Shown in pieces: positions 1 through 35,925 of a DNA stretch of 64,000 nucleotides. The stretch covers positions 1 through 64,000 of the forward strand of contig NZ_JAOBPO010000005.1 in the NCBI RefSeq assembly GCF_025574485.1, given 5' to 3'. The stretch comes from Kordiimonas aquimaris. Lineage in GTDB: Bacteria; Pseudomonadota; Alphaproteobacteria; Sphingomonadales; Kordiimonadaceae. Position 1 is the first letter of the stretch, and each line of letters opens with the position of its first letter. The notes under the pieces are model-generated. The model was not told the origin of the DNA and made no database searches. It saw nothing but the letters and a program-made list of their open reading frames with translations. The position numbers were made by a program, and so were the translations under genes.

Positions 1-30
1 TGAGATGCCCCTAGTTTGTTAGACACCTTG
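1..30. repeat. Left terminal inverted repeat of the IS3 element
   Basis: Pairs with 1208-1237. Both ends share TGAGATGCCCCTAG at the tip and TAGACACCTTG inside; the few bases between differ slightly. Confidence 0.92.
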
Positions 31-894
31 CGATTTCATTTTAGTTTGTTGTTCAAAATCGACGGGAGACAACAACCCGTTGTTACCATGCTTTCTTTTT
101 GGATTGTAAAACATTTCGATGTAATCGAAGACGTCTTGGCGAGCATCCTTGCGGGTTGCGTAGGTTTTGCGCCTGACGCGTTCGCGCTTTAACAGGTGGA
201 AAAAGCTCTCAGCAACAGCATTATCATGGCAGTTGCCGCGCCTGCTCATGCTGGCTTCCAAATTGTGAGCGCCGAGGAACTTCTGCCACTCATGGCCTGT
301 AAACTGGCTGCCCTGATCAGAATGAATGATCACCTTTTGCTTTGGTTTGCGACGCCAGACAGCCATCAGCAAGGCACTCAACACCAAATCCATCTGCATA
401 CGGGGTTGCATAGACCAACCCACCACGCGGCGGGAATAAAGATCAATGACAACGGCCAGATATAGCCACCCCTGATGCGTGCGAATATACGTAATGTCCG
501 TGACCCAGGCATGATCTGGCAGGGCCACTTTGAAGTCTTGCTGTAATCTGTTGGCTGCAACAATCGCAGGTTTGCCACCGTAAAAACCAGCTTTGCGCCG
601 GTAGCCTATTTGTGCTTTGACGCCCGCAATGCTTGCCAGTCGTGCCACACGGTTCGGGCAGCAGGTCTCACCGAGCGACCGCAGGTCGTCATGAAGTTTG
701 CGGTATCCATAAACACAACCACTCTCAAGCCAGGCTTGTTTGATGAGCCCGATAAGCCGGTTGTCATCTCTGGCCCGCTTACTGAGAGGCTTCTTGACCC
801 AGCCATAGAAACCACTGTGATGAACCTTCAGGACGCGGCACATCACCCGCACACGAAACACAGTTTGGTGCGCCTGAATGAAGGCGTACTTCAC
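19..894 (-). CDS. IS3-family transposase OrfB (DDE integrase core)
   Basis: Catalytic half of an IS3-type transposase, 291 aa. The N-terminal part has the HTH_21-like segment (Cys-Arg-Val-Leu near residue 20, then GFYGW). The retroviral-integrase fold follows. The catalytic acids are visible: Asp in WVTDITYI, Asp in IIHSDQGSQF, and Glu in NAVAESFF followed by the usual Lys-Arg. Translation starts at a GTG that overlaps the OrfA stop (TAGTG). In this family OrfB is normally made as an OrfAB fusion by a -1 frameshift, and the one-base junction suits coupling or frameshifting. Length is normal for the family. Confidence 0.93.
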   Translation of the reverse strand: MKYAFIQAHQTVFRVRVMCRVLKVHHSGFYGWVKKPLSKRARDDNRLIGLIKQAWLESGCVYGYRKLHDDLRSLGETCCPNRVARLASIAGVKAQIGYRRKAGFYGGKPAIVAANRLQQDFKVALPDHAWVTDITYIRTHQGWLYLAVVIDLYSRRVVGWSMQPRMQMDLVLSALLMAVWRRKPKQKVIIHSDQGSQFTGHEWQKFLGAHNLEASMSRRGNCHDNAVAESFFHLLKRERVRRKTYATRKDARQDVFDYIEMFYNPKRKHGNNGLLSPVDFEQQTKMKSQGV

Positions 895-1172
895 TACGCA
901 TCCCTTGCGAAGTACGCCGTTGCCTTTTTTAGGATATCTCTTTCTTCGGTGACTCGAAGCAACTCAGCTTTTAACCGCCTGATCTCAGCGCTGTCAGCAG
1001 CTTCCTGCTTGCGTTCCTTGCTTGGCTTTGAAAAAAGCTTCTTCCAATCATAAAGGGACTTTGTACAAACACCAAGCCGTTCAGCCACCTCTTTGACGCT
1101 GTACCCTCGGTCTGTGATCTGAGCGACCGCATCGCGCTTGAATTCTTCTGTATAACGAACACCTATCGGCAT
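894..1172 (-). CDS. IS3-family transposase OrfA
   Basis: 92-aa DNA-binding subunit of the IS3 transposase. It has the typical opening YTEEFKRDAV, a helix-turn-helix (VKEVAERLGVCTKSLYDWKK) and a C-terminal leucine-zipper-like helix (IRRLKAELLRVTEERDILKKA). It ends in the usual way just before OrfB. The start is about 36 bp inside the right terminal repeat, as expected for this IS type. Confidence 0.92.
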   Translation of the reverse strand: MPIGVRYTEEFKRDAVAQITDRGYSVKEVAERLGVCTKSLYDWKKLFSKPSKERKQEAADSAEIRRLKAELLRVTEERDILKKATAYFARDA

Positions 1173-1207
1173 AATCTATAAACTCCTTGCTTCCATTTTA
1201 TAATGAA

Positions 1208-1237
1208 CAAGGTGTCTACAAATCTAGGGGCATCTCA
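1208..1237. repeat. Right terminal inverted repeat of the IS3 element
   Basis: Reverse complement of the 1-30 repeat with a small mismatch block in the middle. Read leftwards, this end supplies the last codons (Met-Arg-Cys-Pro-stop) of the interrupted MazG-like gene. Confidence 0.92.
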
Positions 1238-2009
1238 TTTCTTTAATCATTCTTAACAACGAATAGTCGATTGTATCAATTCCAACGAGGAAGTTACGCT
1301 GCGATGCGTAGGTGAAAATTAGAGCTACTAGGCCTTCATCGATTACCTTTGCGCGGCCGCCATCTTCTACTTCATCGATACGAGCTTCGCGAGCAGACTT
1401 GATTACCTTTGCTTCTTTGAGCAGTTTTCTCATTACCGGAGACCACCCTAGGACCGCTACAAATGCCAGATGCATTGCATCATGAAACTTGTAACCATCA
1501 TCACTGTATGCATTGTCAGTGAGTGCAGCTCCAACATTTGTCTCTGGAGGTAACTCGTTTCCATTGATACGCATCTGAATTTTTTTATGGCCGTCAAGTT
1601 CGATTTCGCGAAATTCTATTTCAAAAGATTGAGGAAAGCGCCGGTCTTCGATTAGGTCGACGTCAAGTGCATCGATTGAGCAGGTATCGTTAAACCTTTC
1701 AAACGTCTTGTGAAGATTGTAATGGATAATTTCGCTTAATTTTAGATCAAACCTATCTGCGAAATTTGACACATACCAAATAATATCTCCAAGTTCTTCC
1801 TTAACTCGATCTCTGAACACCACGTATGCATCACCGTCTCTTAACCTTTTCTTGTATTCCGTAAGAAGGTCGCCCGCTTCACCAGCAAGGCCAAGTAGCG
1901 GAATAATGTCTTCCGTTAGCCCCTCAGCACTTTCTTTGCTGTAGGGAATTCTATTCGTGTCCCGGGCTTTTTGTTGATATTCATCGAACTCTAGTGTTTT
2001 ACGATCCAT
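1224..2009 (-). pseudogene. MazG-like nucleotide pyrophosphohydrolase, 3' end cut off by the IS3 element
   Basis: The preferred start is the ATG at 2009, because GGGAG lies upstream and it gives the same 11-bp overlap as the neighbouring genes; an in-frame ATG at 2132 is unlikely. The N-terminal third has MazG-type all-alpha NTP pyrophosphatase motifs: GLAGEAGDLLTEY and, 30 residues on, VKEELGDIIWYVS, which supply the metal-binding acidic residues. A longer C-terminal region (FHDAMHLAFVAVLGWSP, VEDGGRAKVIDEG) resembles what I know of longer MazG-domain proteins. The last four residues, Met-Arg-Cys-Pro, come from the IS end, so the native C-terminus is missing and may lie left of the window. 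The MazG catalytic part is intact, so partial activity is possible. MazG-family enzymes hydrolyse (d)NTPs to monophosphates. In this operon the substrate could be a normal or modified pyrimidine triphosphate; that is inference. Confidence 0.82.
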
Positions 2010-3036
2010 GGTGAGCTCCCGTTGCTCTGACGTTTTCGTTGATTCCCCATTTTGGTGGAAACCAAAACGAGACCAAGCTTTCATGCGGTGCAAACTTTTG
2101 TTTGATGCGCGTTCTATTAGATTTTCCCACAATGTGCGGGTGCGATACGCGCGAGTATTTACTTATTTCACAAAACAGATTTTGGCAGTCGATGTATTGT
2201 AATTTACGACCCCAAAGGTTTTTAAAGTCTATTCCAAGCCTCGCAAATTCATCGTCTTGAATATCACACATGAACTTGATTAATTCTGCCTCATTTAGAC
2301 CGCCGAGATCATAGAAACACTTGCTAATGCCGTCTAAAGCGCCAGGACCAGGGACAACAAATTCGGTTTCAGAAAAATCAACCACTTCACTGTAGTTAAT
2401 GTCAGTAATATACTGATACGCTAAGAAATCCCCAATTAATGGATACCCAAACAGAACATCAAAGCCTTCCTGCATCGAATTACACGACTTCAGTTTTTGA
2501 ACGATGCCGCTGGAGAACATTTTCTCCATAAGCATCAAGTGATTTTGGTGTTTTCGCTTGTTGCCAAACACATTACTGCCCGGATGCATAATGTAGGCTG
2601 CAGAATATATTTTCTGGCCCGCATCCATTGCGTGAGAAAGAACTTTATCATAGGCAGAGAAAGAGAAATTCGAGAGCGTAAGTTTTCCAAGTTGGTGTTC
2701 TAGATATTCCCATGTTTCAATTTTATTAAACAGTTTGAACAACAATATTCTAAAAACAATTTCATCATCCTCACTTGGTAAGTCTTCGCGGTAAATAACA
2801 TTGCTGATTAGAAATTGACTTGCTCTATCTGCGGCTCGGTATGTGTTAGTAAACTTATACTCTTGGAGAATTGGATCATCAGTCCAGCGGTAATTGGAGC
2901 GCTGTAGACGACGGAAAAGTATGTTCTGCCGTTCGGCAGCAAAATACCAATATGTGTCCAAAAGAGGGGTGGCTATAAGTGGTTTTAAATGTTCAAGCTT
3001 TTCGCTTGAATCGTGCAGTTTGAAGTTAAGTTCCAT
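1999..3036 (-). CDS. 5-hmdU DNA kinase / aGPT-pyrophosphorylase helical-domain family protein
   Basis: 345 aa. I recognise the family from its conserved blocks: YWYFAAERQNILFRRL, WTDDPILQEYKFTNTYRAADR, VFRILLFKLFNKIETWE, GYPLIGDFLAYQYITDINYS, FSETEFVVPGPGALDGI and CQNLFCEISKYSR near the end. The helical domain is somewhat reminiscent of HhH-GPD glycosylases. In phages, relatives take part in hypermodifying thymine in DNA (kinase or pyrophosphorylase acting on 5-hydroxymethyl-dU). Bacterial stand-alone members are usually called nucleotide kinase domain proteins. Here it lies between a ThyA-like and a MazG-like gene, with 11-bp overlaps on both sides, so the three products are probably made together. 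That it modifies pyrimidine bases or nucleotides is inferred from family and context; the exact reaction is unknown. Confidence 0.78.
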   Translation of the reverse strand: MELNFKLHDSSEKLEHLKPLIATPLLDTYWYFAAERQNILFRRLQRSNYRWTDDPILQEYKFTNTYRAADRASQFLISNVIYREDLPSEDDEIVFRILLFKLFNKIETWEYLEHQLGKLTLSNFSFSAYDKVLSHAMDAGQKIYSAAYIMHPGSNVFGNKRKHQNHLMLMEKMFSSGIVQKLKSCNSMQEGFDVLFGYPLIGDFLAYQYITDINYSEVVDFSETEFVVPGPGALDGISKCFYDLGGLNEAELIKFMCDIQDDEFARLGIDFKNLWGRKLQYIDCQNLFCEISKYSRVSHPHIVGKSNRTRIKQKFAPHESLVSFWFPPKWGINENVRATGAHHGS

Positions 3037-3835
3037 TAGGGACTTTCGATTTGATTAAATTTACAATGTCTCTGAGAGAGGACTTCGGAAACCGAGAATC
3101 TCCAATTTTTTCCACACCAACCATAATATTCAATTGCGCGAGCTGAAGACCCATCTCATCGGCCATAAATTTAGCCAGATGAGCAAGCCCAAGAAAGTTT
3201 CCATAAGCTTTTCTTACAACCTGTTGTGTCGCGTAATTGGCATTTACGACTAAGCCTTTATCAGTTGGACAAAAACTGATTTGTTGCATACATGGAAAAC
3301 TGGGAACTTGATCGTGAGTATGATCAATTCTTGGATTATGAATAGATGCCATCAGGTGAATTCGTGGTGGCCCTGCTTTGCCTCCGTTGGCTTTCTTATC
3401 GTTGTATCTATTTATGATGTATTCTAGCTGATTGGGAGAATTTTTATCATCGGCATCAAACATGACAAGGCGCTGAAAATATAGACCTTTTCGGTTCAAT
3501 CTATTTTTTCGAAAACTCACGAAGGAATATTTATACAGGTCATAAAATAGCTGCCGATCGCCCTGTGCTATTTTCCAAATACGTTGAGGGAAAATTGTAA
3601 AAGCGACAATGCCAATAGAAGTTTGTTCTTTTGCTTCTAGAAGTGCATCTATAGCTGATCGTATTTCTGGGTCTTCTTCAACACAATTATTGTCGTCAAA
3701 GCCGTCAATGCAAACTGTCACAGGACCTCTTTCTCCCCCTGAGGCAGCATACATTGCGCATAGCAAGTCGCCCCAAGCGTAAGAGAGGTTTTGACGATGT
3801 ATTGACGGTAAGGGTTCAGTGAGTTTAGCCATCAT
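3026..3835 (-). CDS. Thymidylate-synthase-like (dNMP methylase/hydroxymethylase superfamily) protein
   Basis: 269 aa, ThyA fold. The diagnostic region is residues 158-235: RIHLMASIHNPRIDHTHDQ, then PCMQQISF, where Cys182 aligns with the ThyA nucleophile that attacks C6 of dUMP, then YGNFLGLAHLAKFMADEMGL, matching the ThyA stretch DVFLGLPFN. The residue expected to be the dUMP-binding Asn of ThyA appears to be replaced here, so the substrate may not be plain dUMP. The N-terminal half contains VTVCIDGFDDNN and is diverged. A GAGG lies just before the start. It overlaps the metalloprotease gene upstream and the kinase-like gene downstream by 11 bp each. It could make hydroxymethyl-dUMP or another 5-substituted pyrimidine for its neighbours (inference). 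A cellular thymidylate synthase is less likely given the divergence and the cargo context. Confidence 0.75.
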   Translation of the reverse strand: MMAKLTEPLPSIHRQNLSYAWGDLLCAMYAASGGERGPVTVCIDGFDDNNCVEEDPEIRSAIDALLEAKEQTSIGIVAFTIFPQRIWKIAQGDRQLFYDLYKYSFVSFRKNRLNRKGLYFQRLVMFDADDKNSPNQLEYIINRYNDKKANGGKAGPPRIHLMASIHNPRIDHTHDQVPSFPCMQQISFCPTDKGLVVNANYATQQVVRKAYGNFLGLAHLAKFMADEMGLQLAQLNIMVGVEKIGDSRFPKSSLRDIVNLIKSKVPNGT

Positions 3836-4733
3836 TTACCTCGCTAAGATGCCTGTATTTTGCGAGCCCTACATAGCCATTACGCCTTGATTTTCTTGAT
3901 ATTCTCGCAAAAAATGCCTGACCAAGCGTGCCTCCTTCAACGCGCGCTATGCCTTGATTGAGCGCCTGATACGCAAAGCCGCCCGGAACTTTTAACTCAT
4001 CTGAAAACAGCGAGTCTGAAAAAATTAGGTTGTCCCGACTTACAATCCAGTCCCCGGTTTCCAAATCCAGTGTCTTGGCACAGCTATTTTGATCAACAAA
4101 AATGGCTGGGTCGGTTGAAGTAAATCCAAGCGCAATGTTTCTCAGCAATTGAGGTGTGGATTTTTTTAGGCTCTCGAACTGATTCTTCGAAATGACGGAT
4201 AAACCAAAAAAGAGGTGATACAATACCGTCGTGTATCCGACCTTAAAATCACTTGAGATCGCCCAAATATCCTGCGGAGTTAATGCGGGACTATTTTGCG
4301 TTCTAATGTTGAGAGCTTTCCGCATCCCCAGCGTTGGCATCAACAAATGCGATGCAAAACGATCGGCAAGAAACTCTTTTGGGTCATGAGAGCTTTTGAT
4401 CTCAGAAGTTGACTCGATCTCATGAATTGTCGAACCGTGTTCAAAAACATGATGCCCCAATTCATGCGCACAGGTCATATTTCTGCGCACCAACGGCCTG
4501 AGGTTTGAGATTAAAATTTTTGGCTTTGCCGCCCGGTTGTACATCCCATCCATATTAATATCTACGAATCTAACGCTCACGCCATGTTTATCACAAGCAT
4601 CATAGATACAAAGTGGTTCGATTTGGTCATAGCCAAGGTCAACGCGAGCTTTACTAGCTGCCCGCAAAGCAATATTGGCTAAAAGCCGAGTATCAAACGG
4701 TGGTTTCTGATATTTTTTCATCAATGCCGTCAT
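3825..4733 (-). CDS. ImmA/IrrE-family metallopeptidase
   Basis: 302 aa. Zinc motif HELGH at residues 90-94 (CAHELGHHVFEHG), followed by the family's downstream segment FLADRFASHLLMPTLGMRKAL with the third ligand region. A long C-terminal part (residues 170-300) has no domain I recognise. Proteases of this family cleave XRE-type repressors after a stress or infection signal, as ImmA cleaves ImmR and IrrE cleaves DdrO. The XRE gene lies 12 bp upstream in the same operon, so the pair probably forms a protease-triggered switch for the nucleotide-modification genes (inference). Its stop overlaps the ThyA-like gene by 11 bp. Confidence 0.87.
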   Translation of the reverse strand: MTALMKKYQKPPFDTRLLANIALRAASKARVDLGYDQIEPLCIYDACDKHGVSVRFVDINMDGMYNRAAKPKILISNLRPLVRRNMTCAHELGHHVFEHGSTIHEIESTSEIKSSHDPKEFLADRFASHLLMPTLGMRKALNIRTQNSPALTPQDIWAISSDFKVGYTTVLYHLFFGLSVISKNQFESLKKSTPQLLRNIALGFTSTDPAIFVDQNSCAKTLDLETGDWIVSRDNLIFSDSLFSDELKVPGGFAYQALNQGIARVEGGTLGQAFFARISRKSRRNGYVGLAKYRHLSEVNDG

Positions 4734-4745
4734 TCATACAATTTC

Positions 4746-5081
4746 CTATGTATCCCTCATAGAGGATATGAGGCGCAACAACTTTTCCAAATCATCTGGT
4801 TTAATTTTGGCAAGCTCCCTTGCAGCAAGTTGTATACGTGGGTCATTTGTTTCGAGTGTTTCGTTAATCTCACCCAGAAGCCATGCGCCACTTACCTCGT
4901 AGGCCTCTGCAAATGAATTGATCTCGTCAGCAGAAACTCGTCGTCTGCCAGATTCAATCTCACTAACGGTAGGCCGGTGTAGGCCAAGGATTTTGGCCAC
5001 TTGACCTTGTGAAAGACCAGCAAGTTTTCGGGCTTCCTTTAGTCTAGCCGAGATATCCGATTTCTGGTCTTTCAGTGTCAT
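4746..5081 (-). CDS. XRE-family transcriptional repressor
   Basis: 111 aa. Classic Cro/CI helix-turn-helix in residues 12-62 (ARLKEARKLAGLSQGQVAKILGL, then RPTVSEIESGRR). A short acidic, helical C-terminal tail probably serves dimerisation or protease recognition. Its start overlaps the stop of the small first gene (ATGA). It is the obvious candidate to bind the palindromes over the operon promoter at 5407-5440 and to be the substrate of the ImmA/IrrE-like protease encoded next. Confidence 0.9.
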   Translation of the reverse strand: MTLKDQKSDISARLKEARKLAGLSQGQVAKILGLHRPTVSEIESGRRRVSADEINSFAEAYEVSGAWLLGEINETLETNDPRIQLAARELAKIKPDDLEKLLRLISSMRDT

Positions 5082-5392
5082 GTCGTAAGGCCGTTAGTTT
5101 TAGAGTCATTATCATTTTCAACAACTACAGCCATAATTCTTTGAACGCACTCGTCCAGTGTGAGCTCTTCGTGTGTTTTCTCGTTATAAAATATATTCTC
5201 TTCGGCAGGAATCTGTTTACCTATGTATGCACTTATCATCGCCGAAGCTGTGGGCCATATCTCACTAGTGAAATTCTGAATATCCTTACCCGGCTTTGTA
5301 TCGCCTTTGATTTCTGGGCAGTCGTATCCACTTATCGCCTGAATTTCTGCGATTACATTCTTTACTGCAACGCTTAGGGCCTGTGGTTTCAT
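5078..5392 (-). CDS. Small protein of unknown function, first gene of the modification operon
   Basis: 104 aa, no recognised domain. It is acidic and probably alpha-helical, with a central segment ending FYNEKTHEELTLDECVQRIMAVV. The start is well supported by AGGAAGG about 8 nt upstream and by the promoter at 5419-5447. Overlap by ATGA with the XRE gene suggests coupled synthesis, perhaps as a partner of the repressor or an antitoxin-like component (speculative). Confidence 0.7.
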   Translation of the reverse strand: MKPQALSVAVKNVIAEIQAISGYDCPEIKGDTKPGKDIQNFTSEIWPTASAMISAYIGKQIPAEENIFYNEKTHEELTLDECVQRIMAVVVENDNDSKTNGLTT

Positions 5393-5406
5393 AGCAAATC
5401 CTTCCT

Positions 5407-5447
5407 CTTACATTACGTAAGATATTCTTACATTTGTAATTTGTCAA
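5407..5447 (-). promoter_or_regulatory. Promoter with two overlapping operator palindromes for the leftward operon
   Basis: Reading leftwards there is a perfect -35 TTGACA (plus-strand 5442-5447), a 17-bp spacer and a -10 TATCTT (5419-5424). Two inverted repeats overlap it: CTTAC-5nt-GTAAG at 5407-5421, covering the -10, and TTAC-4nt-GTAA at 5428-5439, in the spacer. They start 20 bp apart, about two helical turns, on the same face of the DNA. This is typical of repression by the XRE protein encoded in the operon. Confidence 0.8.
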
Positions 5448-5815: not shown

Positions 5816-6181
5816 ATGGGTAATTCCAAGCACCATACTGAAACCGGCAATGCGGACGCACCGCGCCGGCAAAGAATGGCGGATAACCATTATTTGAGGC
5901 TTCAGTGCGCCCAAAAAGGATGGGTACTCAAAGGTGCAATTAAATCTCTTGGTCTACGCGTATCGGACATTGCGAAAGAGATTGATGTGTCGCAGGGTCA
6001 TCTTTCAAAAATTCTCGATACCTACTGTGAGCTGGATATAACAACTTGTGAAATGTATTTGAAGAAAGTAGAAAGCGCCCTGGCGCTTCGCGGTGTGCGC
6101 ATGACCGATAGTGACGACCAGATTATCGTCGTTTATGAACGATCAGATTGGTCAATAGATTTCAAGATACCAACCGATTAG
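5816..6181 (+). CDS. XRE-like helix-turn-helix regulator
   Basis: 121 aa. The HTH is central (residues 45-75: LGLRVSDIAKEIDVSQGHLSKILD), preceded by a basic arm and followed by a helical tail and a short beta-rich end (DDQIIVVYERSDWSIDF). The start ATG has a strong Shine-Dalgarno ACGGAGGGG. Three AGTATGA palindromes upstream suggest autoregulation. The gene overlaps the convergent XRE gene by 20 bp at the 3' end. What it controls elsewhere is not evident; the transfer operon starting at 7021 is a possible target. Confidence 0.72.
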   Translation: MGNSKHHTETGNADAPRRQRMADNHYLRLQCAQKGWVLKGAIKSLGLRVSDIAKEIDVSQGHLSKILDTYCELDITTCEMYLKKVESALALRGVRMTDSDDQIIVVYERSDWSIDFKIPTD

Positions 6182-6419
6182 ACTTGGAAGTGCTTCCTGT
6201 GTTTTCGCGCATCAATTCGCCCCAAAATATTGCCATTGACGGCGGATCGGTGCCCATGGCACGGGCAATTTCGGCAAGCTCGCCATCTGTTGGCGGCTTG
6301 CCGTTTTCGATTTGGTTGTAGCGCACGGGCCCAAGACCAGAGGTCCAGCCCACGTATTTTTGTAGCAAGCCTTTACGCTCACGCATGGTTTTGATAGCGA
6401 TACAAAAAGAAGGTTCCAT
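6162..6419 (-). CDS. Small XRE-family regulator
   Basis: 85 aa, a single Cro/CI-type HTH: IAIKTMRERKGLLQKYVGWTSGLGPVRYNQIENGKPPTDGELAEIARAM, with the typical ENG turn and a short C-terminal tail. Convergent with the 5816-6181 gene and overlapping its end. No long sensor domain, so probably a Cro-like repressor. A G-poor start region leaves the exact start slightly uncertain. Confidence 0.75.
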   Translation of the reverse strand: MEPSFCIAIKTMRERKGLLQKYVGWTSGLGPVRYNQIENGKPPTDGELAEIARAMGTDPPSMAIFWGELMRENTGSTSKSNRLVS

Positions 6420-28552: not shown

Positions 28553-28576
28553 TATTCAAATTTGGGAGCGGCTTGT

Positions 28577-29746
28577 ATGTCAAAAAATATAGTAATCTGC
28601 TGTGACGGTACGGGAAACGAAATTGAGATAAATCTATCGAATGTGCTTAAACTTTATAGGTGTCTAAAAAAGACTGATGAACAAGTAGTTTATTATGACA
28701 CAGGCATCGGTACCGTTAGTCAAAGCGATGATTGGGGGCAGCGCTGGAATAAAATCAAATCAGTTTTTGGACTGATGACGGGTAGAGGCATGAACCAAAA
28801 CGTATTAGACGCCTATACGTTTTTGGTCAAAAACTACAAAAAAGGTGATCATATTTATTTATTTGGGTTCAGCCGTGGCGCTCATACAGTAAGAGTACTA
28901 GCTGGGTTTTTAAGAGTTGTCGGATTGCTAAGTTCTAATCAAGAAAATTTATTTGAATATGCGTTAACGAGCTACAAAAAAGTCCTTGGTAGCAATGATG
29001 AAGCTATCGGCTGGCGAGTGAATAAAATTGCTGAAGGCAATTATGTGCCGATTAAATTTATCGGCGTTTGGGATACGGTTAGTTCGGTTTTAGTCCCCCG
29101 AGAAGATCAAATATTACCAACCATGCAGAAGCTTGCCCATACTGGCAGTAATGAGCTTGTAGAGGTATTCAGGCACGCCATTTCTATTGATGAGCGAAGA
29201 AGGATGTTTAGAGTTGATAGATGGAAAGAAGGCCAACTATACAAAAGCAATCCTTTTATGAATGACGACCACGTAAATACTGTTTCACAAAATTCAAAAC
29301 AAGTATGGTTTGCGGGTGTTCATTCAGATATAGGAGGTGGGTACCCGGAAGATGAGAGCGGAATAGCGAAATTCTCATTAAAGTGGATGATGGATGAAGC
29401 TAAAGATCACGGATTGCTCATTAAAACTCAAATGTACAATCACTTGGCTCACGGTAAACTCCGCAAGGGCGGAAACCAAAACTATGTGTCACCAGATCAT
29501 AAGGCCGACATTCACAATTCTCTAACGTTTGGTTGGTGGCCATTGGAGTTAATGCCGAAGCTTGATGTTTTGAAAGAATGGCCGAAGCGTTGGGCAATTG
29601 TGTTATGGGCGTTTTATTTTCCTCGGGCAGAACCCCGTTTGATTAAGAATGGGGAGCTTATTCATCAATCTGTAATTGACCGAATAAAAGATGTAGATGA
29701 TTACAATCCTGAGAATATACCTAAAAGCTATAATATAGAACCATAA
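28577..29746 (+). CDS. DUF2235-domain alpha/beta hydrolase (Tle1-like phospholipase family)
   Basis: 389 aa from the ATG at 28577 (GGGAG upstream). DUF2235 signatures: NIVICCDGTGNE at the N-terminus, VYYDTGIGT, the nucleophile elbow LFGFSRGAHTVRVLAG, FIGVWDTVSSV, FRHAISIDERRRMFR and QVWFAGVHSDIGGGYPE, giving the Ser/Asp/His triad regions. Related proteins include type VI phospholipase effectors and housekeeping hydrolases. It lies 24 bp after the nuclease gene, so the two are probably cotranscribed. No signal peptide. Function in this pair is unknown. Confidence 0.87.
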   Translation: MSKNIVICCDGTGNEIEINLSNVLKLYRCLKKTDEQVVYYDTGIGTVSQSDDWGQRWNKIKSVFGLMTGRGMNQNVLDAYTFLVKNYKKGDHIYLFGFSRGAHTVRVLAGFLRVVGLLSSNQENLFEYALTSYKKVLGSNDEAIGWRVNKIAEGNYVPIKFIGVWDTVSSVLVPREDQILPTMQKLAHTGSNELVEVFRHAISIDERRRMFRVDRWKEGQLYKSNPFMNDDHVNTVSQNSKQVWFAGVHSDIGGGYPEDESGIAKFSLKWMMDEAKDHGLLIKTQMYNHLAHGKLRKGGNQNYVSPDHKADIHNSLTFGWWPLELMPKLDVLKEWPKRWAIVLWAFYFPRAEPRLIKNGELIHQSVIDRIKDVDDYNPENIPKSYNIEP

Positions 29747-32823: not shown

Positions 32824-35800
32824 TCACCTACGCCAATTTTTTTTGCCAGCGAAATACATACGTACTTTGTCCACGGCCTTGTCGGCATCGGTGATGATTC
32901 CGTAAGCGGCAGGGATCACAAACAGGGTGAGGATTGTCGAGGAAGACAACCCACCCATAATAATGAAGCCCATACTGTTGCGCCATTCAGCACCGTCCGA
33001 GGTGGCGAACGCAATTGGCATCATGCCAAACACCGCAGACAGGGCCGTCATCAATACGGGCCTTAGCCGCTCCGGTCCAGCAAGTTTGATGGCTTCAAGC
33101 CGTGTCAAGCCGTCTGCACGTAATTGGTTTGCCCGGTCAACCAGAAGAATACCGTTTTTCATCACAATCCCCATCAGGGCGATTAGGCCAATCTGGGAAA
33201 AAAGTGATATTTCCAAATCCGCGAGATAAAGACCGGCGAAAGCACCTGAAAAACACAGTGGCGCCGTCAACATAACGATAACGGGTTGACCAAAGCTGTC
33301 GAACTGAACGGCAAGAACCATGTATAGCGCGATGATTGCTAAAATGAACGCAAAGCTGATTGCCTCGACGGTTTCCGCAAGGCGGCGGGCTTCTCCCTCA
33401 ACAATAAGTGTCATGCCATCTGGTAAAGGTGTTTCCAGCATCACCTGTGCAAAGGCATCGGATGCTGTGCCCAGTGAAACGCCGCCAGCCGGGTTTGCGA
33501 AAAGGGAAATTTTACGCCCGCGGTCAACGCGGTCAATTTGAGACGGGCCGGTCCCCGTTTCAAAGGTAAGCAAAACACCAGCATCCAGCAGGTCACCCGC
33601 AGCCCCGCGAAACTGCATCAATTGTAGGTCACCAGGCTCGTCGCGGTGATCCGCGCGCAGTCTGGCCCGCACGTCATACCTGCGCCCTCCTGCTTCGAAC
33701 GTGCCCACGTCCGCACCACCAATCATCAATTGACTATCCTGTGCGATAGCGCGCGCACTGATACCCAGTTCTCCAGACATGCGCCGGTTGAGCCGCAGTT
33801 TCAACTCCGGTTTTCCAGCTTCATAGCTGGTGCGCACATCAGCGAACAAAGGGGAGACTTTCATTTTCTCAACCAGCGTATTCGCATAGGTATTTGTCTG
33901 CTCAAGCACTGGCCCTTGAATAACATATTCCATCTTACTGCTCGATACCCCGCCACCTGAAACCCACGGCACCTCGGACACCGACGTTTTCAGGGCAGAT
34001 GGCATAGCGCTCGCAATCGCCTTTCGTGCATCGGACATCAGGGTAAGTTGGGTGAGTTCGCGGCTTTGTTTGGAGGTCAGCGCGACATAGAAATCAAGCA
34101 GGTTGATTTTTTGCTGCGCGCCCCCGCCAGCGGTAATCAGCACATACGTTACCTCATCGACGGCATGAAGAGCCTCATTGAGCGTGTTTGCGGCTCGCTT
34201 CACTTCTTCAATGCCAATACCAAGCGGCAGTTCGACCTGCCCGAGGAATTCGGAACGGTCGGCTAGAGGAGAAAACCCGGTTGGTATTTGTTGGGCGATC
34301 AATATACCGCCAGCAAACGATAAAAACGCAATAACCATGACAATATAGCGGAAGCGAATAGCTTTTTTGAGAGCGGATGCGTAAGCCCGGACAAGCCATT
34401 CATGAAACCGCTCGATAGGATGCAGCAGACCGCCGCCAACCGAGGCTTTCGCCATAAACCGGGAAGCGAGCATGGGTGTGAGGGTAAGCGCCACCAAAAG
34501 TGAAACCGAAACGGAAAACACAATCGCGAGCCCATATTGCATGAAAAACCGCCCCACGATCCCGGACATGAAGGCGATAGGCAGAAAAACAGCGAGCGTC
34601 GCTGCAGTGCCCGCCATAACCGCAAGCCAAACCTTCCTGGTGCCCCCGGAGGCGGCCTCGTGCGGCTCCAATCCCTTGTCCAGTTCTTTCTGAATAGATT
34701 CAACCACAACAATTGCGTCATCTACCAAGAGACCAATCGCAACCGTCAATGCCAGCAATGTCAGAGTATTCAACGTGAAATCTGAGACATACAGCGCAAA
34801 GAATGTTGCGATAAGCGATGTTGGAATGGCGAGGGCCACGATCAGCGTTGCTTTTAGATTGAGCACAAAGAAGAATGTAACCGCCACCACTAGCAGGATG
34901 GCGATAACCAGGTCTTTCTGCACGTCTTCGATTGAGGACTCGATAAAACGGGATACGTCCCTTGAAACTTCGATTGACATGCCGTCGGGGAGCCGCTCAG
35001 TGCTCTGAGTGATATAGTCTTTGACAAGATTGGCGACAGAAACGGTGTTTTTACCGGATTGGCGGCGTAGTTCAACGGCAATACTCGGACGGCCATTCAG
35101 AAACGCGACACTTCTCTCATCTTCCAGCCCGTCCTCAATTGTTGCTATATCCCCCAACTTCACTGGTCTTGTGCCGGTACGGAAGGAGACAACTAAATCA
35201 GCAAATTCTTTGGTCGTGCTGGCCTCTGCGTCAGTTTTTACGATATATTCGCGCTCGCCTCCCCCTACCTCCAGCCTGCCGCCGGGCAGTTCTACATGCT
35301 CTTGGGTCAGCGCATTTCTGATGTCGGAAGAGGTAACGCCAAAGGCGCGCATGCGGTAAAGATCAAGCCAGATTCGCATTTCCCGCAAGCGGCCTCCGAG
35401 GATTTTGGCGGAACCAACACCAGGCAGCCGTTCCAGATCGGCAACAATTTTCTCGTCAACGTAGGTTGTTAAAGCGCCGACATCGGCGTCGCCAGAGATA
35501 ATCAGTGTCATGATAGGGGCGGCATCGGGATCAACTTTTTCAACAATCGGTGCGTTTGCATCCGACGGTAAGTCAGAAACGGCGCGCGCGATTTTATCCC
35601 TTACGTCTTCCGACTTTTCGCTTATATCTTCATCAAGCTCAAACTCAAGTACGACCTGCGAAACGCCTTCCGTGCTGGTCGAGCGCACCTGGCGCAGCCC
35701 TGAAATTGTACTAACATATTCCTCGATGACATCGGTAACTTCGCTCTCAATCGTGTCTGGTGATGCCCCTTCAAGGGTTGTGGTTACAGAAATGTAGGGA

Positions 35801-35925
35801 AACTCCACATCCGGAAACAGATCAACGCCGAGCCGGGGCAAGGAAAGCCAGCCCAAAACAACAAGCGCACCGATCAGCATAACGGCGAGCACAGGCCTTT
35901 TAATTGAAACATCGGAAAGGCTCAT
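32824..35925 (-). CDS. RND multidrug efflux transporter (HAE1 family)
   Basis: 1033 aa, proton-driven inner-membrane pump. Twelve-helix AcrB/MexB-like plan: N-terminal helix (VLAVMLIGALVVLGWLSLPRLGVDLFPDVEFPYISV), a periplasmic porter domain, central helices with the proton-relay pair in VAIGLLVDDAIVVVESI (about residue 400), a second porter domain and the C-terminal helices (LIALMGIVMKNGILLVDRAN). Full length. Overlaps the membrane-fusion gene by one base (TAATG). No outer-membrane channel gene is in the cassette, so it would borrow a chromosomal TolC-type protein. Substrates cannot be read from sequence. Confidence 0.95.
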   Translation of the reverse strand: MSLSDVSIKRPVLAVMLIGALVVLGWLSLPRLGVDLFPDVEFPYISVTTTLEGASPDTIESEVTDVIEEYVSTISGLRQVRSTSTEGVSQVVLEFELDEDISEKSEDVRDKIARAVSDLPSDANAPIVEKVDPDAAPIMTLIISGDADVGALTTYVDEKIVADLERLPGVGSAKILGGRLREMRIWLDLYRMRAFGVTSSDIRNALTQEHVELPGGRLEVGGGEREYIVKTDAEASTTKEFADLVVSFRTGTRPVKLGDIATIEDGLEDERSVAFLNGRPSIAVELRRQSGKNTVSVANLVKDYITQSTERLPDGMSIEVSRDVSRFIESSIEDVQKDLVIAILLVVAVTFFFVLNLKATLIVALAIPTSLIATFFALYVSDFTLNTLTLLALTVAIGLLVDDAIVVVESIQKELDKGLEPHEAASGGTRKVWLAVMAGTAATLAVFLPIAFMSGIVGRFFMQYGLAIVFSVSVSLLVALTLTPMLASRFMAKASVGGGLLHPIERFHEWLVRAYASALKKAIRFRYIVMVIAFLSFAGGILIAQQIPTGFSPLADRSEFLGQVELPLGIGIEEVKRAANTLNEALHAVDEVTYVLITAGGGAQQKINLLDFYVALTSKQSRELTQLTLMSDARKAIASAMPSALKTSVSEVPWVSGGGVSSSKMEYVIQGPVLEQTNTYANTLVEKMKVSPLFADVRTSYEAGKPELKLRLNRRMSGELGISARAIAQDSQLMIGGADVGTFEAGGRRYDVRARLRADHRDEPGDLQLMQFRGAAGDLLDAGVLLTFETGTGPSQIDRVDRGRKISLFANPAGGVSLGTASDAFAQVMLETPLPDGMTLIVEGEARRLAETVEAISFAFILAIIALYMVLAVQFDSFGQPVIVMLTAPLCFSGAFAGLYLADLEISLFSQIGLIALMGIVMKNGILLVDRANQLRADGLTRLEAIKLAGPERLRPVLMTALSAVFGMMPIAFATSDGAEWRNSMGFIIMGGLSSSTILTLFVIPAAYGIITDADKAVDKVRMYFAGKKNWRR

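Follow-up and report, generated by a model that had tools for sequence, protein, structure and literature searches.

Organisation of the operon

The DNA analysed here (the window) is a 64,000-nt stretch of Kordiimonas aquimaris, positions 1 to 64,000 of contig NZ_JAOBPO010000005.1. Six closely packed open reading frames (ORFs) on its minus strand, running from 5392 to 1224, make up an operon for an acyl-carrier-protein-like (ACP-like) protein, an XRE-family repressor, an ImmA/IrrE-type protease, a ThyA-like enzyme, an HMUDK protein (the helical domain of 5-hmdU DNA kinase) and a MazG-type pyrophosphohydrolase (Table 1). By coordinates, the first gene overlaps that of XRE by 4 bp, and there are overlaps of 11 bp each at the ImmA/ThyA, ThyA/HMUDK and HMUDK/MazG boundaries, the last counted from position 2009; the gap between XRE and ImmA is 12 bp. 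The MazG frame (1224–2132) opens with TTG, and the earliest ATG of its MazG part is at 2009. An initial annotation, made from the sequence alone, had described six leftward genes with tight overlaps, and these, together with the gene order and families that it assigned, are borne out by the ORF coordinates and by library scans. Two of its points needed revision: mazG is cut by an insertion sequence (IS) rather than intact, and the first gene, given there as unknown, is predicted to be ACP-like. The HMUDK protein matches its helical-domain model with 361 bits against a curated cut-off of 25, and residues H90, E91 and H94 of ImmA are kept in 85 of 85 alignment rows. A further small XRE-type regulator gene is located upstream of the operon at 6162–6419.

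Table 1. Features of the operon and its surroundings in the window.
Feature	Position	Strand	Evidence and remarks
-35-like hexamer TTGACA, presumed operon promoter	5442–5447	-	Sequence; TTGAC near operator in relatives
Palindrome GTAAGAnnnTCTTAC, presumed XRE operator, at -10 region	5417–5431		Exact match; conserved upstream of ACP gene
Acyl-carrier-protein-like protein, 104 aa	5078–5392	-	Predicted phosphopantetheine site, serine 43
XRE-family repressor	4746–5081	-	HTH_31/HTH_3 2e-15; PADLOC capH 2e-14
ImmA/IrrE-type metalloprotease (M78)	3825–4733	-	PF06114 (Peptidase_M78) 4e-12; PADLOC capP 2.4e-15; HExxH at residues 90–94
ThyA-superfamily enzyme, 269 aa	3026–3835	-	C182 presumed nucleophile; N213
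HMUDK_hel (5-hmdU DNA kinase helical domain) protein	1999–3036	-	PF18723 6e-108; without the thymidylate-kinase domain fused in some relatives
MazG + MazG_C nucleotide pyrophosphohydrolase gene, IS-interrupted near 3' end	1224–2009	-	PF18722 9e-44, positions 5–139 of 190
IS with two transposase ORFs, inserted in mazG	1–1237		rve and HTH_Tnp_1 domains; identical 1237-nt copy at end of contig C11

The first gene encodes a predicted carrier protein

Library scans of the first gene yielded weak matches only, to unrelated or unknown families, and the Pfam PP-binding family (PF00550) gave no match for the window protein and, with E up to 0.1 allowed, a match for one of 57 relatives. The predicted fold is of the four-helix carrier type. 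At the start of helix 2 there is a serine of the phosphopantetheine type, present in 85 of 86 alignment rows with a gap in the remaining one, and the residue before it is Asp in 68 of the 86 rows and Thr, as in the window protein, in 9. The ungapped distance from this serine to an Ile-Pro pair equals that in E. coli AcpP. Homologues from Allocoleopsis and three Streptomyces are annotated as ACPs, those from Rhizobium, Nostoc and S. fredii as hypothetical proteins. That the small gene might encode any helical protein was rejected on the basis of the invariant serine, the linkage to a gene for holo-ACP synthase (AcpS), the ranking of folds and the ACP annotation of homologues. As judged from the fold prediction and the conserved serine, the first gene is acyl-carrier-protein-like, with phosphopantetheine modification of its product predicted; the initial annotation had overlooked both this and the AcpS partner. 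Carrier proteins armed with phosphopantetheine are familiar from the synthesis of fatty acids, polyketides and peptides.

A profile of this protein (A4) gives matches in two samples of genomes, in 2 of 289 and in 3 of 398, Kordiimonas aquimaris being counted in both. In two of the three other genomes the gene set extends from ACP to MazG, and both are among the 80 loci described below; the third has ACP and XRE alone. The suggestion that the profile merely detects housekeeping ACPs was discarded, since it gives one match each in four cassette-carrying genomes and is rare in the samples.

The ThyA-like enzyme

For the fourth protein neither Pfam nor, with the window protein alone as query, a sequence search of the PDB gave a match at E up to 1; the thymidylate synthase model TIGR03283 is matched at 1.4e-9, under the cut-off of the model. 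The predicted structure has the thymidylate-synthase fold, with MilA and AfhB as the closest structures. C182, found in 88 of 88 alignment rows and the presumed nucleophile, is aligned with a cysteine of MilA. N213, an asparagine of the uracil type, is aligned with the Asp of MilA; in thymidylate synthases Asn at this position points to uracil. Position 202, which corresponds to the arginine of the (d)NMP phosphate site in the ThyA motif, is aligned with an Arg in MilA; here the residue is Ala in 83 of 88 rows and Arg in 3. The ThyA-like identity assigned initially holds up on the predicted fold.

Conservation of the cassette

A collection of species genomes was scanned with the ThyA alignment, giving 237 relatives, the best 80 of which were taken as loci; this choice fixes the ThyA count at 80, and some of the loci are nearly identical to one another. 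By annotation with hidden Markov models, XRE and HMUDK are each present in 79 of these loci, ACP and ImmA each in 78, and MazG and AcpS each in 66. AcpS is not universal, because 11 of the 14 loci without it still retain at least 2 kb of sequence. In 43 of the 80 the genes ACP-XRE-ImmA-ThyA-HMUDK-MazG run in the same direction with AcpS opposite, an order that, on the annotated gene positions, is in excess of chance expectation. The locus titles name alpha-, beta- and gammaproteobacteria, cyanobacteria, Acidobacteria, Planctomycetota, Chloroflexi, Opitutaceae and others. Comparison of the annotated loci shows a conserved cassette of predicted genes, ACP, XRE, ImmA, ThyA-like, HMUDK(-Tmk), MazG and AcpS, behind a conserved palindrome. 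The reading first put forward presupposed that the enzyme genes co-occur elsewhere and are linked to XRE and ImmA, and both are seen in these loci.

Further genes accompany the core. A thymidylate-kinase-like (Tmk-like) domain is present in 16 of the 80 loci, fused to HMUDK in 11 (in L020, for instance, as Thymidylate_kin, PF02223, at 7e-15) and separate in 5, where some of the genes are distant and one is weakly matched. A dCTP-deaminase-like gene is found in the fetched flanks of 24 loci, two of which (L022 and L026) also have a protein without a Pfam match at the place of MazG. Neither the dCTP-deaminase-like nor the Tmk-like gene was seen in any of 17 control stretches, which amount to 0.24 Mb as against 1.17 Mb for the loci. 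These extra parts point to a pathway of uracil nucleotides, as far as gene content can indicate. The core set given in the initial annotation stands; the frequent dCTP-deaminase-like and Tmk-like partners and a variant with a C1 peptidase had been overlooked.

PF18723 by itself is present in 7 of the 289 genomes of the class sample, Kordiimonas aquimaris included, so HMUDK also serves other systems. On a Gloeothece plasmid (L004, 114–3225) a gene annotated as a phospholipase of the cyclic-oligonucleotide-based antiphage signalling system (CBASS) stands immediately ahead of HMUDK and MazG, followed by TIR genes. A TIR-domain protein and an unknown protein are accompanied by HMUDK with radical SAM in Parabacteroides (L008, 4844–7934) and by HMUDK with thymidylate synthase and an O-methyltransferase in Sinorhizobium chiapasense (L018, 1668–7071). 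On two sphingomonad plasmids (L007, 5306–10676; L015, 5324–11236) HMUDK adjoins an exonuclease-type gene and dnaE, which suggests a link there with a plasmid-borne polymerase.

A palindrome at the promoter and the XRE/ImmA pair

In the window the TTGACA hexamer precedes the palindrome GTAAGAnnnTCTTAC, which sits at the place expected for the -10 region. The upstream sequence of the ACP gene could be searched in 77 of 78 loci, one being omitted as having too little of it; the palindrome is exact in 56 of these, has at most one mismatch in 72 and at most two in 74. The background, measured with at most one mismatch allowed, amounts to 4 sites elsewhere in 1.13 Mb. Of 74 operator-bearing relatives, 49 have an exact TTGAC within about 3–22 nt on the 5' side of the operator, as against 1 of 74 shuffled stretches, and a stricter promoter rule (spacing of 16–18 bp, at most two mismatches in TTGACA) fits 41 loci. 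The site in the window is the sole exact one found in the 3.81-Mb genome, where sites with one mismatch are no more frequent than those of a control pattern. No upstream copy of the palindrome was found in the Streptomyces loci or in those of the second variant described below.

Genes for a repressor and an HExxH protease thus lie side by side, the presumed promoter has a conserved palindrome, and we infer that XRE would repress the operon at the palindrome and that ImmA would cleave XRE. The proposal of a protease-operated switch had been based on the linkage of the two genes, which holds in conserved order; the operator itself had been missed.

Probable partner of the carrier protein

Partial correlations of pairwise distances were calculated for 48 non-redundant loci, taken from the 54 in which the set of seven genes is complete and so excluding any that lack MazG or AcpS. 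The correlation of ACP with ThyA is 0.44 [0.24, 0.58] and that with XRE 0.08 [-0.13, 0.25], the former exceeding the latter in 99.4% of bootstraps; XRE with ImmA, the positive control, gives 0.37 [0.18, 0.50]. Because ACP co-varies best with ThyA and not with XRE, the analysis favours ACP as a partner of ThyA, as far as co-variation of sequences can tell. Our preferred though tentative interpretation, to which we would give a little under an even chance, is of an inducible, XRE/ImmA-switched system that modifies uracil nucleotides and in which the carrier protein is the partner of the ThyA-like enzyme.

The carrier protein could instead be a sensor, its acylation or phosphopantetheine state informing the XRE/ImmA switch, with the enzymes acting only as an effector that depletes deoxynucleoside triphosphates (dNTPs). 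In 76 of 78 loci no more than 120 bp separate ACP from XRE, the second variant maintains the order small gene-XRE-ImmA despite different downstream genes, locus L129 retains ACP and XRE with the remaining genes lacking within 13 kb, and ACP shows a weak correlation with ImmA (0.21 [0.03, 0.32]), all of which would fit a sensor. The stronger co-variation of ACP with ThyA than with XRE argues against it, and we consider a sensor unlikely, if worth serious attention. The near-universality of ThyA in the cassettes is no argument against a sensor, as the loci were found through ThyA.

A second variant on plasmids and in Haloarcula

Five plasmids (L104–L108) have the order small gene-XRE-ImmA-C1 peptidase-ThyA-like, with a gene for uracil-DNA glycosylase on the facing strand; MazG is present in four of the five, and the domains of the variant were checked in L105. 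The second-variant ImmA gave 16 plasmid matches, and those examined were L016 and six more. In Haloarcula marina a single stretch contains genes for dTMP kinase, HMUDK, a phosphopantetheinyl transferase (PPTase), a small protein, XRE, ImmA, a C1 peptidase and a ThyA-like enzyme. The small proteins of the five plasmids, L016 and Haloarcula have a DS motif in 7 of 7 cases. An AcpS match is found in L104 and L016 and the PPTase in Haloarcula, while no AcpS or PPTase match was found in the other four second-variant plasmids.

Proposed pathway

In the system of uracil-nucleotide modification that we prefer, XRE would repress the operon through the palindrome until a signal led ImmA to cleave it. 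AcpS would convert the carrier protein to its holo form, and dUMP would be supplied by MazG and, where present, the dCTP deaminase. The ThyA-like enzyme would use C182 to activate the uracil ring and, partnered by holo-ACP as carrier, install a group at C5 other than a plain methyl, the product then being phosphorylated by the Tmk and HMUDK kinases. Replication of phage or plasmid would be halted by the modified nucleotide or by the loss of normal dNTPs; in the second variant, uracil-DNA glycosylase may act on the modified nucleotide in DNA. Uracil nucleotides are suggested by the alignment of N213 with the Asp of MilA and by the dCTP-deaminase-like and Tmk-like partners. A bolder version, possible but on the doubtful side, is that the enzyme reacts the activated C5 intermediate with a group borne on phosphopantetheine, either the thiol of the arm or its cargo, so that the nucleotide would be built on, or handed from, the ACP. 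The product would be an inducible immune antimetabolite across bacteria, with a related form in a haloarchaeon that has its own PPTase-family gene.

Modification of the element's own DNA, for self-protection or self-recognition, would resemble the hypermodification of thymine known in some phages that have HMUDK relatives. Such relatives are present in 454 phage records. When 50,697 phage records were searched for the ThyA-like protein, no match reached E 1e-3, and a pattern-based search of viral contigs turned up two relatives; repression by an XRE switch would be odd for a modification that is constantly needed; this alternative seems to us improbable.

The interrupted mazG and the probable conjugative element

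The mazG frame of the window terminates within the IS. The missing end of MazG_C (profile positions 138–185) is at 854509–854652 of contig C11, at the end of that contig, followed by the second IS copy, and TTT stands on the outer side of both copies. The simplest reading is of a single IS insertion at which the assembly broke. The insertion probably impairs the activity of this copy by removing some 50 C-terminal residues of MazG, and the copy of the system in this genome is possibly inactive because of it.

Past the end of mazG lies acpS (C11:854132–854428; PF01648, 2.9e-9), the genome having two more matches to the ACPS family elsewhere; no dCTP-deaminase-like gene was found in the 13.9 kb around acpS. 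Further on are a DUF6538 protein with a sub-threshold match to an integrase N-terminal domain and a tRNA-Gln (L143, 8971–10565), with a GHMP-kinase gene and others of chromosomal appearance beside them, and this tRNA and integrase-like gene possibly mark the attachment site of an element. On the other side of the operon are F-type conjugation genes (TraC, TraN, TrbC, TraH, TraG and a TraD-type coupling protein), and from this layout, with conjugation genes to one side and the integrase-like gene and tRNA-Gln to the other, the operon probably belongs to the cargo of an integrated conjugative element, close to its integrase end. Its carriage on such an element had already been suggested, and the adjoining transfer genes agree with that. 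Amid the conjugation genes there is also a protein with a phospholipase domain like Tle1 of the type VI secretion system (28562–29746; PF09994, 2.5e-80), and close to the transfer genes a large AcrB-family RND transporter (32824–35925; PF00873, 1.7e-259).

Potentially toxic nucleotide enzymes accompanied by an XRE/ImmA pair, on plasmids and here beside conjugation genes, might also serve as an addiction module that, in the manner of a toxin and antitoxin, retains the element in the cell. A complete pathway of six to eight genes would be large for such a module, no antitoxin is obvious besides the repressor, and we would attach only a slim chance to it.

Defence neighbourhood

Matches to PADLOC models were sought around 76 of the 80 loci, two without ACP and two without flanking ORFs being left out; the scan covered 148 of 280 flanking ORFs, from 41 loci, and 138 of 172 control ORFs. 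At 1e-10 the flanking ORFs match 274 models and the control ORFs 7, figures that give the direction of the difference and not its size, since the controls are arbitrary stretches of the window's class rather than phylum-matched and PADLOC models are redundant. Among the 25 of the 274 models listed, AbiEii leads with 10 flanking ORFs, AbiEi, type IIG, ThsB and LmuB are also matched, and mads_3 is matched by three ORFs in each set. DCD and AbiEii are not among the 25 Pfam families with most members in the control ORFs. A role in defence against phage is probable, protection being suggested by the genes of the neighbourhood.

A cluster for a nucleoside natural product or antimetabolite, in which an exported pyrimidine compound like mildiomycin is made and the ACP carries an amino-acyl or acyl group, is a further alternative. 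MilA, a CMP hydroxymethylase of mildiomycin synthesis, is among the nearest folds to the ThyA-like protein, and a Lys/Orn-monooxygenase-like gene stands between ThyA and HMUDK in L066 (9216–10580; PF13434), with a similar sequence in L091 (3527–4888). No conserved gene for an acyltransferase, ligase or exporter was seen in the core, and a conflict system agrees better with the XRE/ImmA pair, the rarity in sampled genomes and the neighbouring AbiE, ThsB and type IIG genes; we give a natural product little weight beside uracil-nucleotide modification in defence.

If the latter is correct, the presence of a dedicated carrier protein, with the enzyme that activates it, in a protease-switched cassette of many phyla would imply new chemistry in nucleotide metabolism, probably new chemistry of phage defence, and a source of modified nucleotides of unknown kinds. 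For experiments, a single serine, a single cysteine and a single palindrome offer firm handles.

Comparison with known systems

According to the searchable part of PMC13092281 (2026), 5-hydroxymethyluracil kinase and thymidylate synthase are among newly validated defence domains of E. coli, and a dNMP kinase appears in the legend of the same figure; aGPT-Pplase, MazG and MazG-C are listed there as predicted, unvalidated defence domains, and several of these domains are credited to the predictions of Burroughs et al. 2015 on nucleotide-centric conflict systems. The E. coli systems found there by DefensePredictor share domains of the thymidylate synthase, 5-hydroxymethyluracil kinase and MazG types with the cassette, a comparison made by domain only; in contrast to the cassette, that part of the text contains no word beginning acyl, ACP, phosphopantetheine or carrier protein. 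The searchable part of PMC10853773 likewise has no acyl carrier, MazG or ACP terms. A blastn search with the HMUDK gene of one relative against 20,395 E. coli records found nothing, a weak test at the DNA level. No description of ACP and AcpS linkage in such a cassette was found in the searchable literature, which left out Burroughs et al. 2015, and neither the carrier protein with its synthase in a nucleotide cassette nor the palindrome was found in the literature searched. The statement in the initial annotation that no described system has this exact gene set is thus uncontradicted in that literature, with related domains in PMC13092281.

The cassette resembles the CapP/CapH pair of CBASS in its ImmA-type protease and XRE repressor (Table 1). 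Unlike in CBASS, no CD-NTase (nucleotidyltransferase) model is among the PADLOC matches of the six operon proteins. Anti-phage systems based on dCTP deaminase are known, and the dCTP-deaminase-like gene in the flanks provides a likeness to them, whereas here the deaminase would be a single, optional step. Closest in fold to the ThyA-like protein are the CMP 5-hydroxymethylase MilA and the phage dCMP hydroxylase AfhB, with 14–16% identity. It differs from MilA in having Asn for Asp and Ala for Arg at the two positions described above, and from both enzymes in being accompanied by a carrier protein.

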